Shown here piece after piece: positions 46,625-60,090 of a stretch of 64,000 nt of DNA. The notes beneath the pieces are model-generated. The model searched no databases. It was not told the origin of the DNA and saw only the letters and a list, made by a program, of their open reading frames with translations. Position numbers and translations under genes: made by a program. Position 1 is the first letter of the stretch, and the number at the start of each line of letters is the position of its first letter. Source of the DNA: Chitinivibrionia bacterium (lineage in GTDB: Bacteria > Fibrobacterota > Chitinivibrionia > Chitinivibrionales > Chitinivibrionaceae); assembly GCA_009779925.1 (NCBI GenBank), contig WRAZ01000006.1:1-64000 (forward strand). The letters run 5' to 3'.

Positions 46625-46885
46625 GCATAACGTATTTTCCCGATACCACTATTACTGAATTGTCGGATTTATTTCCGCTTTTCACTGTTCTTTGATTTAC
46701 GTTTTGTTTGTCGCTAAACCGGCAAAACAGTCCCTCAGGCTGTTCTGTCATCTGTCGGTTTTAGTGTGCTAGAACAAAGGTGGTGAACATATTCAGTAAT
46801 TGTGGTAAATATTTTTAATATGGGCAGAACAGCCTTATGTTGTTTCTGCTTAAACTTTTCACAATTTTATTAGGAGGGTTGCATT
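46625..46885 (+). promoter_or_regulatory. Surface-protein 5' leader, copy A
   Basis: A 5' region upstream of the lipoprotein gene. Promoter-like CATAACGTATTTTCC is at about 46629-46643. A local hairpin (46715-46764) contains AACAGtCC/GGcTGTT. Segment 1 AGGCTGTTCTGTC (46737-46749) is fully complementary, allowing one G-U pair, to segment 2 GGCAGAACAGCCT (46823-46835) 73 bases downstream. Segment 1 cannot pair locally and at long range at once. RBS AGGAGGGTTGCATT precedes ATG. The same plan recurs in copy B. Confidence 0.55.
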
Positions 46886-47587
46886 ATGGGAATGCAAACA
46901 AAACGGTTATTTGGGATTTTGGCAGTAGTGGTTGGTATGGCGTTCTGGGCGGGATGTTCGGATAATGGCAATGGCGATAAAGGCGGCAACGGCGGCGGAG
47001 ATTTTTCAGGGCTTACAGAATTGAGATTAAGCGGACAGGTATGGGCGACAGATCTTGTGAAATATACAGGAAGCCGCGTTGTTTATGGACGACCCGACGG
47101 TATAGGTGGCAGTGGAAATATTAACAACGGACAATTAAATTTCACTATCGGCACGCCTAACACCTCGCAATTAATAAGTATTCTTGAATGGCTTGAAGGG
47201 GCAGAAGATGAGTATGACAATATTGTTGTCAGCAACGATGAAGCAATGATGGCGGATTTATGGCTTAGTGTAGGAGGCAACATACATGCAGTGGAATTTT
47301 TGAGAGCGCATGATGTAGAAACAGCAAATGGCGGAACTGTTCAGTTTGAGTTATATATATACGTTGACAGAAACGTTAATATAACAGGCAAAGGCAAAAC
47401 ATTTGACGGCTATGATTACGGAATAGCTACTATCACAACCAATGATTTTACCCTCAATCTCAAAAAGGGTTGGAATATTATTAACCAAAAAGAAGAACGC
47501 GTCGGCGATATTGCCAGCACCATAACAGTATCCTTAGGAGAAGTTAGCAACGGACGATGGTGGTTATCTTATTTTACTATTGACTAA
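46886..47587 (+). CDS. Surface lipoprotein of unknown function
   Basis: A 233-residue lipoprotein. The signal MGMQTKRLFGILAVVVGMAFWAGC ends in the lipidation Cys24, followed by a Gly/Asn/Asp-rich spacer (SDNGNGDKGGNGGGD). The mature part is beta-rich (LRLSGQVWATDLVKY..., GGTVQFELYIYVDRNVNI, DGYDYGIATITTNDFTLNLKKGWNII), suggesting a small Ig-like or lectin-like domain. No family recognised. It has the conserved leader described for 46625-46885 and is followed by a strong terminator. Confidence 0.75.
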   Translation: MGMQTKRLFGILAVVVGMAFWAGCSDNGNGDKGGNGGGDFSGLTELRLSGQVWATDLVKYTGSRVVYGRPDGIGGSGNINNGQLNFTIGTPNTSQLISILEWLEGAEDEYDNIVVSNDEAMMADLWLSVGGNIHAVEFLRAHDVETANGGTVQFELYIYVDRNVNITGKGKTFDGYDYGIATITTNDFTLNLKKGWNIINQKEERVGDIASTITVSLGEVSNGRWWLSYFTID

Positions 47588-47626
47588 TGATTGACTTGAA
47601 CAGACAATTTTAACCCAGCAATAGCA

Positions 47627-47655
47627 GAGACGAGAAAAAATCTCGTCTCTTTTCT
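47627..47655 (+). terminator. Rho-independent terminator
   Basis: GAGACGAGA aaaaa TCTCGTCTC, a perfect 9-bp stem (47627-47649), is followed by TTTTCTT. It ends the 46886 lipoprotein transcript. Confidence 0.9.
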
Positions 47656-47750
47656 TGATACTTCTTTTTTTACCCCCTCAAGTTTTCAACAAATCTGCCG
47701 ATACTGCACAATAGAGGGAACTGTATCGATACATTAACACGGAGGTTTTT

Positions 47751-48653
47751 GTGGCGGGGAATGTAAACAACAATTCGGCGGTTAATTCACATTTTGCGGC
47801 GTATAATTGGGCGTACGCAAACGGCACAAAAGATTTTGCGACCGAAAAATCATTGCCGCAGTATCAACCGAGCAACGCCGCGACTGCGCAATCGGACGTT
47901 ATAGAACTCAGCGCGGAGGCGCGAAACGCCGTCGGGAGTATGAGTTCGGATTTAAGAAACGTACTGCTGAACAGCAATCTTAATATGCGCTCCGTTTTGG
48001 TGGAACAAGGCAACACAAGTTTTCGTGCGATTATAACGCCTCTTGGTATTTGGAAAGAAAGCGGCGGCAACGGCGACAGCGCATTTAGATCCGCAGAATT
48101 GCTCGATACTTCAAAAGGCGTTCCGGGCGTGGCTCAATCCACAATACGGGAATTGGAACATCTGAGCAAAATGCTTTCGCATATACCGCCCGAAATCACA
48201 AGAATAGGATTGATTGAGCGCGGCTACACTCCCCAACTTGATTTTGTGCCGAATAATCTTGAAGCGCGCGAACACGTCGGCACTCCCGAATTTCATCTTA
48301 ATCCCGACAGACCGATTACACTTCAATCGCAGTCTGCAACTTTATTTGACCGCCTGCAACAAATGACAAACGCTTTTGCGGCAGTGCGCGAGGAATTCGG
48401 CAATTCCAATCAGCATATTCAGTCTTCGGAAGCGGCTTTCAGGCATTTGCTGAACAATCAAATGCTTGCCGCTCAATTAGCAAGAAAGAATTTGGAAGGC
48501 GAAAGCGCCGCAAATATGAGTAGCGCGGATATTCATCAAATGCGCGAAGAAGCCCAACGTCAAATTAACGCGTTCGGCGACACATTTTTAAGCAATTTCA
48601 GAGAACACGGCTTAGACGGCGCTTTTGAAATCGCTTGGAAGCAGTTGCAATAG
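47751..48653 (+). CDS. Hypothetical cytoplasmic protein
   Basis: A 300-residue protein with GTG start at 47751 behind GGAGG. No signal peptide or membrane helix. The N-terminal part is Asn/Ala-rich (NVNNNSAVNSHFAAYNWAYANGT); DVIELSAEARNAV (about 49-61) resembles a short motif seen in FlgM-like and phage-associated proteins but is not diagnostic. The rest is mostly helical with Gln/Glu/Ala-rich segments (residues about 205-300). Function unknown. It sits between two leader-bearing surface-protein genes. Confidence 0.65.
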   Translation: MAGNVNNNSAVNSHFAAYNWAYANGTKDFATEKSLPQYQPSNAATAQSDVIELSAEARNAVGSMSSDLRNVLLNSNLNMRSVLVEQGNTSFRAIITPLGIWKESGGNGDSAFRSAELLDTSKGVPGVAQSTIRELEHLSKMLSHIPPEITRIGLIERGYTPQLDFVPNNLEAREHVGTPEFHLNPDRPITLQSQSATLFDRLQQMTNAFAAVREEFGNSNQHIQSSEAAFRHLLNNQMLAAQLARKNLEGESAANMSSADIHQMREEAQRQINAFGDTFLSNFREHGLDGAFEIAWKQLQ

Positions 48654-48750
48654 CGGTAAAATTCAAGTTGAGGCAATCTTTTTTCACAAACTCTTCAATC
48701 AAAAACACAAAATAAAGAACATCTCCCCCCTTTCCATCACTGCCAAATAT

Positions 48751-49002
48751 TATTTTTCCCTTACTTACTAACGGCAAATTTGGGATTTTGTTCCCGATTT
48801 TGTTTGCTCTTTTGTTGTTTTCGGCGCAGTAGAGAGGTAGAACACCTATGAGGTTGTTCTGCCTTACCTCTTATCTGTGTTAATAAAATCAATTAGAGCA
48901 TTCGCTGTTAGTAAGTAAAACAATGAATTTACTGGCAGGGCAGCCTTTTCGTTGTTTTTGGCTTGAGTTTAATTACTTTTTTAATACAGGGAGGGTTGCC
49001 TT
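48751..49002 (+). promoter_or_regulatory. Surface-protein 5' leader, copy B
   Basis: Same plan as copy A. Promoter-like CAAATATTATTTTTC is at about 48752-48766. Local hairpin with AGAGGT/ACCTCT outer stem (48833-48838 with 48866-48871) and AACACC/GGtTGTT inner stem. Segment 1 AGGTTGTTCTGCC (48851-48863) pairs base for base, with three G-U pairs, to segment 2 GGCAGGGCAGCCT (48934-48946) after 70 bases. RBS GGGAGGGTTGCCTT precedes ATG at 49003. Confidence 0.55.
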
Positions 49003-51960
49003 ATGGGCAAATTTACAAGTCTTAAATTTTTGGCGGCGATATTGGTTATCGTCGGTATGGTTTGGGGGCAGACAACGCGGTTTGGTCCCCGTGGTCCTCG
49101 CGGAGGAAACAGTGAGCAGCAAGTTTCAGGAACTTCTGCCGTAAGCGCTTCAATGTTTAGTGTTATAGATGATAACACCGGAACAGATTGGGCGGCTACA
49201 GAAATTACAATTACCACCGAAGAGCAGTTGAGAGTGATGGCGTCTTTGGTGAATTCTGACACAAGAAATTTTGAAGGGCAAACGATTATTCTCGACAACA
49301 ACATCAATCTTAACGGCAGTTCGGCAAATCCGTGGACACCTATCGGAAACTCAAGCCGTCCTTTTAACGGAATATTCGACGGCAACAACAATGTTATCAG
49401 CGGTGTTTTTATCCAAGTTTGGAACAGCAATCGAGGGTTTTTCGGTAGTATCGGTCAAAAAGGAGTGGTGAAAAATCTTGGCGTTGATGTGAATATTACA
49501 ATGCAAAATTGGGGTGATAATATTGGCGGCTTAGCGGGACAAAACAGCGGCACAATTAGAAATAGCCATACATCCGGAACAATAACCACTTGGAGTAATA
49601 ATGCCGGCGGATTAGTAGGGAATAACAACGGCACAATTGAGAATTCGTATTCTTCTGTAAACGTAAACGGCGGTCAGAGTGTCGGCGGATTGGTCGGACA
49701 GAATTTCGGCACTATTAGAAATTCTTACGCTGTCGGAAATGTTTCGGGAAGTTGGGAAATCGGCGGTTTGGCAGGACAAAACAACGGAACTATTATAAAC
49801 TCATTTGCTTTGGAAGGCGCATCCTCTGCACTTGTCGGACATAACAACGGCACAATTACAGGAAATACCGAACTTAGAACAGCCGCGCAAATGAAAACGC
49901 AAACCACCTACACAAATTGGAGTTTTGTTTGTATCTGGCAAATCAGTGCAGGCGAAAATGACGGTTTCCCGCGTTTGCGTCCGTCGGGCGAGCATAACTG
50001 GAACGATTGGGGGACTTGGAATATCACAACAGCCGGCACTTGCCACAGCTCCGGAAGCAGAACAAGAACAATGACTTGCAGAACTTGCTCGGAACAAATC
50101 GTACAAACAGAAGTAATTCCCGCAGGACACGATTGGAGTGCTTGGGCACAAGTTATCCCTGCAGGTGCAGAAACGAACGGACAAGAAACAAGGCTTTGTC
50201 AGAGAATATGCGGCACATCTCCTGAAACTCGCATTATCCCTGCAACAATGTGGAACGCAGATAACATAACGGTAAGCACCGAAACACATTTAAGAAATTT
50301 GGCGGCAGTTGTCAATAGCGGAGTAAGAGATTTTGAGGGGCAGACTATTGTCCTTGCAAACGACATAGAACTTGAAGGCGGTCAGTGGATTTCTATCGGG
50401 AATTCAAATAGTGCTAGTTCTTTTAGCGGCATATTTGACGGTAACGGCAGAATTGTCAGCGGGCTTGAGATTAGCAATAATGGTGAGCAGCGGGGATTCT
50501 TTGGTACTATCGGACAGAAAGCAACTGTAAAAAACCTTGGTGTTGAAGTTAATATTACCGGTTGGGGGTGGTATGTCGGCGGATTGGCAGGAGAAAATTT
50601 TGGAACCATTCAAAACAGCTATATTAAAGGAAATGTAAGCGGAAACGAATGGATTGGCGGTTTTGTGAGCGTGAACAACGGAATAATCAGCAATTCTTAT
50701 TCTCTCGCAACAGTCAGTGCTTCGTGGGGAGGAATTGGCGGATTTGCAGTACAAAATTCCGGCACAATCACCAATTCTTACGCTCTTCAAGGCACGGCGA
50801 GCCAATTTGTTGCTTGGTCCGGCTCAAGCACTACAAATTCCGGATTCAGAACAGCAGAGCAACTAAAAACACCGGCGACTTTCAACACTTGGGATACCGA
50901 GAACATTTGGGGAATTGCAGCAAACACCAACGACGGCTTCCCGCACTTACGCGTTTGGGGTAATCCGGGCGATTGGGTAGGCGATGTTGCGGCGACTTGT
51001 GCAGCAGACGGCAGCAGAAAAAGAGCAAGAACTTGTCAGCGTTGCAACAGTGCCGGCGAAGAAATTGAAGCAATTGCAGCGTTGGGTTGCTCAATGCCTG
51101 CCGATTGGACTGTAATTGCAGCAACTTGCGCAACAGAGGGTAGTAGAACAAAAACCTGCACACGAGCTTGCGGGCACTACATAAGAGAAACGATTGCGAT
51201 TGATCACAACGCGCACGCTTGGGGCGAGTGGACAACTACAACAGCGGCGACTTGCGCAGCAGAGGGCAGCAAAAGACGAGTGTGTTCTCGTAATAATACT
51301 CACGTAGAAAGTGCACCGCTGCCGAAATTAGACCACTTGTTTACAAATTGGACAATAACCACACAACCGACTTGCAAAGCCGCCGGCGAATTAACGGGTC
51401 GTTGTTCGAGAACGGATTGCGAAGAAACAAGCAGACAAAGCATACCCGCAATTTCGACAAATCACGATTGGGGAAATTGGTCGCTGATAAAACTTCCGAC
51501 ACGCACCGAAGAGGGACAATTAAGAAGAGTTTGTAAATTAGATGCTACTCACGTCGAAACCTTGCCGATAGACAAATTAGAATATTGCGACCGTTGCGAC
51601 AGACCGATAGAAAACTGCAATTGCCCACCGGTAAATATAACATCCAATCGTCGGTCAAACGAGCGCAATCACGGCATTTTGTTTACAAATCCTGTATCGG
51701 AATCCGCAGAATTGCACATCGTTCTTCCCGATAACGAAGATGTTGCAGACGCAAAAATTGTAATTTTCGATGCCGCAGGCAACATCGTCCATAATGTAGA
51801 GACGCAATGCCTTGCGTTTCCTAATTGCACGGTAATCTGGAATTTGCAAAACCAATCAGGCAGATTTGTCGCCAACGGCACATATTTGATTGTGGTCGAA
51901 GCAACAAGTGCCGGCGGTCGAAGATTTACCTATTCGTCGAGAATTGGCGTAAACAGATAA
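49003..51960 (+). CDS. Large surface protein: GLUG repeats, Cys-rich repeats, sorting-type tail
   Basis: A 985-residue exported protein. Signal MGKFTSLKFLAAILVIVGMVWG. Two beta-helical modules of GLUG repeats at about 65-300 and 425-640 (GGLAGQNSGTIRNS, GGLVGQNFGTIRNSY, GGLAGENFGTIQNSY). From about 320-375 and about 660-880 run units of about 45 residues of the form W..W......TC...G...R.C..C, like the 'TC.EEG..TRTC' repeats of gut adhesins. A final FlgD-Ig/sorting-like domain (about 895-985) ends SSRIGVNR. It has leader copy B and the terminator at 51985. Likely an adhesin; ligand unknown. Confidence 0.85.
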   Translation: MGKFTSLKFLAAILVIVGMVWGQTTRFGPRGPRGGNSEQQVSGTSAVSASMFSVIDDNTGTDWAATEITITTEEQLRVMASLVNSDTRNFEGQTIILDNNINLNGSSANPWTPIGNSSRPFNGIFDGNNNVISGVFIQVWNSNRGFFGSIGQKGVVKNLGVDVNITMQNWGDNIGGLAGQNSGTIRNSHTSGTITTWSNNAGGLVGNNNGTIENSYSSVNVNGGQSVGGLVGQNFGTIRNSYAVGNVSGSWEIGGLAGQNNGTIINSFALEGASSALVGHNNGTITGNTELRTAAQMKTQTTYTNWSFVCIWQISAGENDGFPRLRPSGEHNWNDWGTWNITTAGTCHSSGSRTRTMTCRTCSEQIVQTEVIPAGHDWSAWAQVIPAGAETNGQETRLCQRICGTSPETRIIPATMWNADNITVSTETHLRNLAAVVNSGVRDFEGQTIVLANDIELEGGQWISIGNSNSASSFSGIFDGNGRIVSGLEISNNGEQRGFFGTIGQKATVKNLGVEVNITGWGWYVGGLAGENFGTIQNSYIKGNVSGNEWIGGFVSVNNGIISNSYSLATVSASWGGIGGFAVQNSGTITNSYALQGTASQFVAWSGSSTTNSGFRTAEQLKTPATFNTWDTENIWGIAANTNDGFPHLRVWGNPGDWVGDVAATCAADGSRKRARTCQRCNSAGEEIEAIAALGCSMPADWTVIAATCATEGSRTKTCTRACGHYIRETIAIDHNAHAWGEWTTTTAATCAAEGSKRRVCSRNNTHVESAPLPKLDHLFTNWTITTQPTCKAAGELTGRCSRTDCEETSRQSIPAISTNHDWGNWSLIKLPTRTEEGQLRRVCKLDATHVETLPIDKLEYCDRCDRPIENCNCPPVNITSNRRSNERNHGILFTNPVSESAELHIVLPDNEDVADAKIVIFDAAGNIVHNVETQCLAFPNCTVIWNLQNQSGRFVANGTYLIVVEATSAGGRRFTYSSRIGVNR

Positions 51961-57372: not shown

Positions 57373-59379
57373 TTAAATTCGTGCATTCAGATAATTTACC
57401 CTCCTTATCCACCAATCAGCCATAAGTTCTACTTGTCGGGCGTGGTCTGGGTCATATCCTTCCCAATAACCGCTTCCGCATTCCATTATCCATCTTTTGG
57501 AATCTTCTTTAACGCCTGCTCTGATTGCAAGTCCTTGCGATTTTATAAAATCGCTGACGGCAAGTATTTCGGTAAGTTTTTCAGTAAAACGCGCTCTGTA
57601 TCTTGCTACAAAAACAGGATCTTCAAAAAAACGTCCCCAAAAAGCGTTTGCTGAGTGTTGATGAAAATAAATATAACGATGTCCTGCAAAATATATGTGC
57701 CCCCCACCCTCTACATAACCAAATCCCCAATCAAAATCCCATAGCATACCTGCGCTTATTTTATCATTTCTGCTTCTTCTATAAAAAAATGTGCTTTTGG
57801 GATGATTCGGCTCAAAGTTCTGAACAATTTCGTTTACCATAATAAAATCTACCAAACTATTTATATCTACCAAATCGCGCCAGCCGTTTTCGGGAAACGT
57901 TTGACAGGCAAGTAAATCGGTGAATTCAGCCCAGTCGTCTATTATGAAGCGATAGCGCGGGTCGTCAATATTATCGCTGAACGACGGCGCTGAAATATTC
58001 ACCGGTAAGTTGAAATTATCGGTTTTAAACCACGGCTCATCTGTGCCGACATCTAATTGCACAAACCAACCGCCGTTATTAAAATCGACATTTGCTCGTC
58101 CCGGAGCGCCGATACCGTTGGGGTCGGCTTGTCTGTGTTCCGTTAGTAAGTAAACTCCCCAATATTCTCCATCCAAATACAAATGAACGTGTTTATGAGT
58201 GTTGGTGTAAGGCAGGTTAAAAACTTCGCGACCGAGATAAAGTGTTGCCGCGTTAGTTAAAAACGTCGGGTCTTGAAATTCCGCAAGCAATATCCAGTTT
58301 CGACGTGCGGCAAGCCCGAACATAGACGTGTCGTTTCTGAATCTTATCCGAAATGGCTGTTTTGGATATCCCCAAGTGGTGTTTCCGCGCCCTCTGATTT
58401 CTTGGTTTCTGATAGTGGCAATATTATTTTGCGGATTATTGGGGTCGTTCAAAGAAAAAGTCATATTTGTCCAAATTCCCGTGGCGCTACCGTGGATTTC
58501 TGCGCCGTAAGCGTCAATAAAGATAACAGGCAGAGTTCCCTCTGCTCTGCCCCTATATCCGATAAGTCCGCCTGTTAATGGATTCCACGCCCCGAATTCT
58601 CGATTTTTGGGACGGAAATGTTCTAATTCGTCATCGTCAACTCCGCCGTGAGCGTAGCGAATGCTTTCAAAGTCGGCGGCATTATTGTCCGTTCCGTCGA
58701 GGGTTATGCGGCGAACGGCTTCCGAAGCGGAGTTTCGCGTTGGCGTTCCTTTGTATCCGAATATGTTGTCGGGATTTGTTGCGTGGTCAATATTGTTTGC
58801 TGTTCCGAGCAAATCAATGAAACCGACGGCAATCTGGCTTCCGTTGCCGTCCATAGTAAACGGATTTTGCACGGTTAATGGAGTTGTGCCTCGGATAAGA
58901 GCGACCTTAAACGCCCGATTGCTCAAACTGAAATTCGGGTCGTTAATATCGCCCGAATTATCATTTATTGACAGGCGACCTGTTGTGTTTTCTCTTGCTC
59001 CTAAAATTAAGAACGATGTTTTTGCGGGAATTGTTCCGCTCAAAGGGATTGCTCTCCAATTATCATCCACCCCTGCTTCTCTTGCAGGCAAACCTCTTAT
59101 ACCGTCCGCGTGAAACAAGGTAATCCCGCTCAAGTTTATCGGTGAATCGGAGTTGTTGTAAATTTCAACAAAAGAATGGCTTGCACCCGCCGCGTCTCCC
59201 GAAGAGCCATACGCCTGCAATATTAGTAATTGCCCTGAAAGCGAGTCCCGTCTTCCGTGATTATTGCATCCGCTATCACGGTCATAATCATCATTTTTGT
59301 CGTCCGAGCAACCGACAAAATTCGTCATACTTAACGCGATAATCCATATCGCCGCCAACATTTTAATAAAACGTCTCAT
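57373..59379 (-). CDS. CotH kinase-like lipoprotein with lamin-tail domain
   Basis: A 668-residue surface lipoprotein. Start at 59379 (GGGAGG upstream); the ATG at 59394 overlaps the RBS. The signal MRRFIKMLAAIWIIALSMTNFVGC (24 residues) is followed by a D/N-rich spacer. A lamin-tail-like (LTD) domain spans about 45-215 (FVEIYNNSDSPINLSGITLF). The CotH domain (about 300-600) has GRGNTTWGYPKQPFRIRF, RRNWILLAEFQDPTFLTNA, VHLYLDGEYWGVYLLTEH and the metal-binding-like MLWDFDWGFG. CotH proteins phosphorylate surface proteins or act in cellulosome-type systems. Leader copy D lies upstream. Confidence 0.85.
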   Translation of the reverse strand: MRRFIKMLAAIWIIALSMTNFVGCSDDKNDDYDRDSGCNNHGRRDSLSGQLLILQAYGSSGDAAGASHSFVEIYNNSDSPINLSGITLFHADGIRGLPAREAGVDDNWRAIPLSGTIPAKTSFLILGARENTTGRLSINDNSGDINDPNFSLSNRAFKVALIRGTTPLTVQNPFTMDGNGSQIAVGFIDLLGTANNIDHATNPDNIFGYKGTPTRNSASEAVRRITLDGTDNNAADFESIRYAHGGVDDDELEHFRPKNREFGAWNPLTGGLIGYRGRAEGTLPVIFIDAYGAEIHGSATGIWTNMTFSLNDPNNPQNNIATIRNQEIRGRGNTTWGYPKQPFRIRFRNDTSMFGLAARRNWILLAEFQDPTFLTNAATLYLGREVFNLPYTNTHKHVHLYLDGEYWGVYLLTEHRQADPNGIGAPGRANVDFNNGGWFVQLDVGTDEPWFKTDNFNLPVNISAPSFSDNIDDPRYRFIIDDWAEFTDLLACQTFPENGWRDLVDINSLVDFIMVNEIVQNFEPNHPKSTFFYRRSRNDKISAGMLWDFDWGFGYVEGGGHIYFAGHRYIYFHQHSANAFWGRFFEDPVFVARYRARFTEKLTEILAVSDFIKSQGLAIRAGVKEDSKRWIMECGSGYWEGYDPDHARQVELMADWWIRRVNYLNARI

Positions 59380-59399
59380 AAAAAATCCTCCCATATTAG

Positions 59400-59500
59400 A
59401 GATTAAAAGTTAAGTTTTACGGGAAAAACAACAAAAAAAAGAGGTTGTTCTGCCGAAATTCATATTTTCGACAAAAAATCACGAATACGCTATCGCATCG
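59400..59500 (-). promoter_or_regulatory. Surface-protein 5' leader, copy D (upstream of CotH gene)
   Basis: On the minus strand, ATTCGTGATTTTTTGTCGAA precedes GGCAGAACAACCTC (59441-59454), then a T run and GTTGTT. This is segment 2 of leaders A and B. It is homologous, in inverted orientation, to copy C at about 60026-60090. A clear segment 1 is not found; GAGGTT near 59530 is a weak candidate. Confidence 0.45.
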
Positions 59501-59808
59501 CAAATAGTAAAAAAGTTATTACTTGTTCCGAAACCTCGTTTAAAAGGCGTTCATTACTAGTATTACATCTAAGATCAAGCAGAGATAAACTCTACTCGTG
59601 ATTTTTTGGCACAGGGAAAATATGTTATTGCAACAATAGAAAACGAAAAAAAATCTAAATATTTGATTTAACAGAGAAAAAAATGCGTTAAAAGCGCTTT
59701 TTTTTATCAATTAAAACATAGTTTTTTTCAATTTTTTTTAATTATATTTAAATGGTATAATCTTTAATATCCAATAACTACAAAAAACTTCCTCATTTTT
59801 CCTGCGCC

Positions 59809-60090
59809 AAATAGTATTTTCTTCCCTGCCAAGAAATCACGATGATGTAGAGATTATGTCTCTGCGTTTCGTTTTAAAGTAAAATTAGTGGTTGCCGGAT
59901 GCTATGTTCTTACGAAGGACAAGCACCTGTAAAAGTAATTTTTGGGGGGGGATTCTGCCCATCTTGTTAGCTTATACAGGCGGTAATTACTATATTATGT
60001 AAATTACAGAGAAACGACAAGTGGTAATTCGTGATTTTTTGGCGAAAATAAGAATTTTCGGCAGAATACCCCTTTTTTTTGTTGCCTATT
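59809..60090 (+). promoter_or_regulatory. Orphan surface-protein 5' leader, copy C
   Basis: CCAAATAGTATTTTC promoter, then segment 1 GGGGATTCTGCC (59948-59959) and segment 2 GGCAGAATACCCC (60060-60072), complementary with one bulged A. The pair is 100 bases apart and followed by a T run and GTTG, as in copies A, B and D. No gene follows; the next coding-like text is a C-terminal tail. Confidence 0.5.

Follow-up and report, generated by a model that had tools for sequence, protein, structure and literature searches.

A candidate pseudoknotted leader RNA in about 60 copies, mostly upstream of exported-protein genes, in a termite-gut Chitinivibrionia bacterium

The Termite-flg and Termite-leu RNA motifs (RF01729 and RF01730) are structured RNA candidates, both known from bacteria of the termite hindgut only (PMC2864571). 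The leader described here is likewise a candidate structured RNA from termite-gut bacteria, but it matches neither of them: a search of the leader region against Rfam at E≤5 returned nothing relevant, Termite-flg and Termite-leu being unmatched up to E=5, and at the gathering score no Rfam 15 family matched it in scans of the whole window (the entire 64,000-nucleotide stretch that was analysed) and of 20 further loci. The open-access literature, to which the literature search was confined, yielded no description of this leader element. The earlier claim that the RNA is undescribed is in keeping with the lack of an Rfam match.

Other described systems resemble the leader in part. With translational and attenuation riboswitches it shares a place in the 5' leader, a closing P1 helix and a variable output module, as well as alternative pairings common to the upstream domain and a gene-proximal segment; unlike them, it has no known ligand, shows no conserved junction core that we could see, is present in about 60 copies in one small genome, is confined to one genus and has mainly exported proteins as its targets. 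To our knowledge, few structured leader RNAs reach such a copy number in one small genome. Like 5'-terminal mRNA stabilisers it has a helix at its inferred 5' end, before envelope-protein genes, but it is much larger, is predicted to be pseudoknotted, and carries a conserved long-range helix and competing hairpins. Like integron attC sites it has arms that are complementary within each copy and diverge from one copy to the next; however, the folded strand of the leader is the gene-sense strand, the copies are dispersed and no integrase was found above cut-off. As in structured cis-regulatory leaders, compensatory changes keep the fold (in two genomes) and the element lies in sense upstream of genes.

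Copies and their downstream genes

The first-pass annotation had drawn attention to two similar leaders in the window, in front of genes 1 and 2 (Table 1), in each of which a segment 1 could pair over a long range with a segment 2. The positions it gave for the two segments are right to within one base in both leaders, and the nearly identical RBSs that it noted are the same 10 letters in both. The promoter-like motif and the segments are indeed present, but the extent of the leader had been underestimated; the element begins around 70-90 bases further upstream, at the boxes listed in Table 1, and its closing helix P1 had been missed. The leaders of both genes are members of one RNA family with a length of about 190 bases. 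The family was traced via the shared RBS and then via the pattern of segment 2, which gave 65 matches in the whole genome compared to 12 for the reversed pattern, and side-by-side comparison of the copies revealed a common plan much larger than the two-segment pairing.

Table 1. Features of the four leader copies in the window and of the first two downstream genes
Feature	Position	Strand	Sequence or remark
Copy 1 box	46633..46638	+	TATTTT; promoter-like; 5 nt before P1
Copy 1 P1 5' arm	46644..46660	+	TACCACTATTACTGAAT; pairs with 46791-46807
Copy 1 hairpin P2	46664..46677	+	CGGA 46664-46667 with TCCG 46674-46677
Copy 1 local hairpin holding segment 1	46726..46744	+	AACAG 46726-46730 with CTGTT 46740-46744
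Copy 1 segment 1	46738..46749	+	GGCTGTTCTGTC; 12-bp complement of segment 2
Copy 1 P1 3' arm	46791..46807	+	ATTCAGTAATTGTGGTA
Copy 1 linker	46808..46822	+	near-constant length in the family
Copy 1 segment 2	46823..46834	+	GGCAGAACAGCC
Copy 1 segment 3	46839..46849	+	GTTGTTTCTGC; rival local partner of segment 2
Copy 1 RBS	46873..46882	+	GGAGGGTTGC
Gene 1	46886..47587	+	233-aa lipoprotein-like exported protein, no Pfam family
Copy 2 box	48751..48756	+	TATTTT; promoter-like
Copy 2 P1 5' arm	48761..48779	+	TTACTTACTAACGGCAAAT; pairs with 48900-48918
Copy 2 hairpin P2	48780..48797	+	TTGGGA 48780-48785 with TCCCGA 48792-48797
Copy 2 segment 1	48852..48863	+	GGTTGTTCTGCC
Copy 2 P1 3' arm	48900..48918	+	ATTCGCTGTTAGTAAGTAA
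Copy 2 linker	48919..48933	+
Copy 2 segment 2	48934..48945	+	GGCAGGGCAGCC
Copy 2 RBS	48990..48999	+	GGAGGGTTGC
Gene 2	49003..51960	+	985-aa secreted GLUG-repeat protein with C-terminal FlgD_ig-like domain; Pfam GLUG E=1.3e-16, FlgD_ig just below cut-off
Copy 3, diverged	59443..59611	-	E=1.7e-9; retains P1, P2, the linker and segment 2; segment 1 unrecognisable
Copy 4, diverged	59827..60071	+	E=2e-7

A covariance-model search found 60 leader copies in the 2.5-Mb genome at E≤8e-6, dispersed in the genome. An 18-kb stretch of one contig (G000:C24:10580-28856) has a cluster of six copies, all on the same strand, two of them about 440 bp apart, and at another locus a contig start (L051:1-118, minus strand) carries the 5' end of a 16S rRNA gene around 1 kb from a leader copy. 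In the window, copies 3 and 4 (59443-60071), both among these 60, stand back to back with nearly identical P1 sequence; copy 3 precedes a gene for a 673-aa lipoprotein-like product (57373-59394, minus strand), and from copy 4 to the next long ORF the distance is about 180 nt.

The covariance model R1 (173 positions and 26 pairs, built from 31 copies) was also used on the sole congener examined, the termite-gut MAG Chitinivibrionia bacterium Mp193P3bin36 (WRFX01; Fibrobacterota). It gave 28 matches there at E≤0.01, 27 of them at E<1e-6, a few being near-identical contig pairs. Further copies with compensatory changes were obtained both in this genome and in a relative. Covariance-model search covered 168 phylum genomes, with three from the same family among them, and gave no credible copy in the other 166; these large searches used stricter filters, so that a strongly diverged form elsewhere could escape detection. 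One match in the phylum (G013, E=8e-4) was dismissed as it is inside a coding region, and an exact pattern scan of viral contigs gave no match.

The leader is located 28-129 nt upstream of start codons, mostly those of exported-protein genes. An RBS and a start codon on the same strand within 140 nt were present for 52 of 66 copies, compared to 4 of 66 in a mirror-image control. Proteins were scored as exported if a simple, rough hydropathy rule indicated a signal- or membrane-like segment at the N-terminus, with background genes taken from neighbouring loci and the window. By this rule 35 of the 42 testable downstream proteins have a signal-peptide or membrane-like N-terminus, against 44/135 of the background (p=8e-9), and in the congener the figures are 11/17 and 5/25 (p=0.008). 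The association with cell-surface genes, first suggested from genes 1 and 2, extends to an enrichment for exported proteins in two genomes. The products include lipoproteins, a GLUG-repeat protein and proteins with pilin-like starts; for a few downstream genes, export of the product is not obvious. Since the leader recurs mostly before exported-protein genes, one RNA shape probably controls much of the cell surface.

The signal peptides encoded at gene 1 (L001) and at L008 agree at 88% over 25 aa, and the proteins are unrelated beyond. Some of the downstream proteins thus have nothing but the signal peptide in common, as if leader and signal-peptide start had spread as a module. A nearly identical 25-aa signal peptide is common to L001, L003 and L008.

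The multi-helix fold is conserved in two genomes

From 5' to 3' the leader consists of a box AAATATTAT[TA]TT, 5 nt, the P1 5' arm, the hairpin P2, the P3 domain, the P1 3' arm, a linker and segment 2; the majority of the copies here then have a segment 3 (about GCTGTTTTTGC), and the RBS comes last. In a pattern search the promoter-like box TAT[TA]TT was found in 68 copies with a fixed spacing to the TGC or TAC that opens P1, and no conserved -35 was seen near it. Transcription probably starts at P1 or just before it, judging from the box. P1 is the closing helix, of 13-22 bp. Segment 1 (consensus GGYTGTTCTGYC) lies within the inner hairpin of the long P3 domain, whose stability exceeds that obtained with shuffled flanks in 48/52 copies here and in 19/19 in the congener (z below -2). 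The linker between P1 and segment 2 has the consensus of about AAAATTATGAATTTT and, counted from the P1 column taken as reference, a length of 15.4 ± 1.5 nt; the consensus of segment 2 is GRCAGARCARCC. P1 crosses the 12-bp helix of segments 1 and 2, so that the two together would form a pseudoknot, and the near-constant linker of about 15 nt suggests that they can coexist in this way. If they do, the long-range helix may serve as a structural part no less than as one of the states of a switch.

P1, P2 and the segment 1:2 pairing covary in each genome separately, in alignments made from sequence only. For this genome a MAFFT alignment of 51 copies was made without structural information; 93.6% of cells were paired, compared to 80.1 ± 0.6 in shuffles and 39.8-52.6 with slid partners, the three-helix covariation score was 0.459 against 0.217 ± 0.009 in shuffles and at most 0.129 with slid partners, and double changes were seen at 12/12 P1 and 6/6 P2 pair columns. 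In a second alignment, made separately from 23 copies of the congener that R1 had located but that had played no part in building it, 93.7% of cells were paired, the covariation score was 0.533 against 0.262, and double changes were seen at 14/14 P1 pairs. The P1 columns are 14-26/206-217 (A1) and 2-15/176-189 (A4). Kinship among paralogues inflates these covariation counts, which the controls with slid partners and the use of a second genome offset in part. By these sequence statistics, a multi-helix fold has been kept by about 60 paralogues in this genome and by about 27 copies in the congener.

Segments 1 and 2 were paired in 98.4% of cells in this genome and 96.4% in the congener, with double changes in both, and this helix is less informative because it is conserved in sequence. 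In the congener alone, 1 of 500 shuffles reached its score, and copy-wise permutation over both genomes gave 15/5000; in the permutation set L026 and L058 were anchored on the wrong segment 1, which produced false mismatches but leaves the column-based counts unaffected. Double changes were found at pair 10 (G-C to A-U, in three congener copies), at pair 4 (U-A to A-U, in L042) and in copy 4 of the window, where segment 1 (GGGGGATTCTGCC, 59947-59959) and segment 2 (GGCAGAATACCCC, 60060-60072) are both altered and are complementary except at one position. With 60 copies in the genome and the scores above, the long-range pairing first seen in two leaders is not a matter of chance. It had been stated that their paired positions differ while the pairing is kept; between those two copies the changes are wobble changes, and the double compensatory ones come only from other copies.

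On the gene-sense strand, G.U exceeds A.C in segment 1:2 (139:6), in P2 (80:30) and in P1 (24:6), which argues for an RNA rather than a duplex-DNA repeat. This counts against a DNA-level element, such as a folded recombination site of the integron attC kind, an invertible promoter or a MITE-like repeat, which would account for dispersed inverted repeats, for complementary arms whose sequence varies among the copies and for signal-peptide coding segments common to otherwise unrelated proteins (L001/L008). Further, the orientation of the element to genes is fixed (52/66 against 4/66), no integron integrase was above cut-off in either genome and all 71 P1 arms are distinct, so these are not recently transposed copies. 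A DNA-level element is accordingly very improbable. The attC site was also considered by itself and rejected; neither genome gave a TIGR02249 match that reached the cut-off, nor did the controls, and the copies are dispersed.

The arms of P1 match at 97% within a copy and at 40% between copies, and G.U makes up 2.5-2.8% of P1 pairs compared to 15-18% in other helices of the same RNA. Such perfection may come from a need for stability, from a factor that binds double strands or from concerted change in the two arms; a helix with almost no G.U and free sequence poses a clear evolutionary question. An almost wholly Watson-Crick P1 with free sequence would also suit a constitutive 5'-terminal stabiliser, in which the P1 duplex and a compact pseudoknot block RppH, RNase E and exonucleases on long-lived exported-protein mRNAs, with no switching involved. 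Bacterial mRNAs are known to be protected by 5' secondary structure, RppH and RNase E needing single-stranded 5' ends (PMC3997798), and as P1 comes 5 nt after a -10-like box the RNA 5' end would fall at the helix. However, a stabiliser needs neither a conserved segment 1:2 sequence, nor a competing segment 1 hairpin, nor a fixed linker, and all three are observed; we regard this explanation as unlikely, though the most serious of the alternatives considered.

Competing pairings and the output step

The local hairpin that holds segment 1, described at the outset for the two window leaders, has a mean energy of -7.5 kcal/mol in 52 copies of this genome, compared to -3.6 with shuffled flanks; in the congener the values are -6.7 and -4.1. 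Segment 2 can in turn fold with segment 3, a hairpin seen in 50/52 copies here where 21 are expected and in 14/19 in the congener where 8.9 are expected, with energies of -10.7 against -5.9 here and -6.1 against -4.9 in the congener. Since segment 1 has a rival local partner in both genomes, and segment 2 has one in this genome, the switch-like layout is real, and the two-partner arrangement that the first-pass annotation proposed for segment 1 has statistical support in both. The rival hairpin of segment 2 is weak in the congener, and so the two-state balance is not equally conserved. In a direct comparison, mean energies (kcal/mol) are -21.7 for the segment 1:2 duplex, -6.8 for the segment 1 hairpin and -10.7 for the segment 2:3 hairpin; in these calculations the two predicted states are close in energy once a pseudoknot cost, of unfixed size, is added.

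Alternative pairings in a leader position, with a constant upstream domain and a variable output module, are also what would be expected of a metabolite-sensing riboswitch that acts by transcription attenuation or translation control, and a U-rich tail (at least 6 U in 9 nt) is found behind 18 of 52 segment 2:3 hairpins. However, the conserved letters are in the pairing segments and the linker rather than in a junction core, the leader occurs in one genus only among the 168 phylum genomes and its target genes are very heterogeneous; a riboswitch of this type seems improbable. As a general terminator the segment 2:3 hairpin was not retained, the support being weak and especially so in the congener, where 3/19 have such a tail.

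The RBS carries a GGTTG extension in 22/44 element genes compared to 3/205 of the background, and in 7/17 compared to 0/37 in the congener. This extension is complementary to the CARCC end of segment 2. The simple model in which segment 2 hides the RBS is unsupported here; freeing segment 2 lowers access in 4/43 leaders and raises it in 10/43, and folding of the 3' leader gave no consistent RBS occlusion in this genome. In the congener the Shine-Dalgarno sequence is unpaired at 0.10 against 0.21 in shuffles and CTCC-like anti-Shine-Dalgarno sequences are common, an effect seen only there.

Possible role in expression of exported proteins

The reading that we favour, with fair though far from complete confidence, is that of a genus-specific cis-acting leader RNA, pseudoknotted via P1 and segment 1:2, that tunes the expression of an exported-protein regulon. 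The element would work like a leader-RNA switch, a putative cis-acting expression switch of exported genes in which no single output step is singled out. The leader would be transcribed in the sense of the downstream gene; the RNA would fold P2, P3 and the segment 1 hairpin first, after which P1 would close. The emerging segment 2 could then invade segment 1 via the unpaired CUGYC end, forming the pseudoknot, or fold into its own hairpin, and the balance of the two states would set the amount of exported protein through translation start or mRNA survival. The trigger of this putative switch and its output step (translation, stability or attenuation) are parts that we infer. Nothing like the conserved junction core of a typical small-molecule aptamer was seen, and a metabolite would therefore be a less likely trigger than a genus-specific protein or a physical cue.

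Should the leader act in this way, a large part of the exported proteome of an uncultured bacterium from the termite gut would be coordinated by one RNA architecture. More speculatively, and rather doubtfully, the pseudoknotted switch could be a master control of the cell surface, in which about 60 leaders have a common segment 1:2 lock, each with a private near-perfect P1 (71/71 arms distinct) that would hold the lock in cis, and which new exported genes would join by gaining a leader and a signal-peptide start. The copies are in any case a natural variant set for testing RNA pseudoknot switching.

Leaders of the congener such as L079, L087, L095 and L113 have, in the stretch from segment 2 to the start codon, a CTCC-like anti-Shine-Dalgarno sequence and a second hairpin (about GGCAATAACAATAACGTTTTTGCAT) 5' of the RBS, and a hairpin similar to the latter is present in L014, L024, L048 and L062 of this genome. 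In leaders L017, L019, L026, L028, L030, L035 and L068 of this genome, close to the RBS on its 5' side, a small hairpin GCCG...CGGC, the stem letters of which vary, is found directly 5' of AGAAAGG or GGAAAGG.
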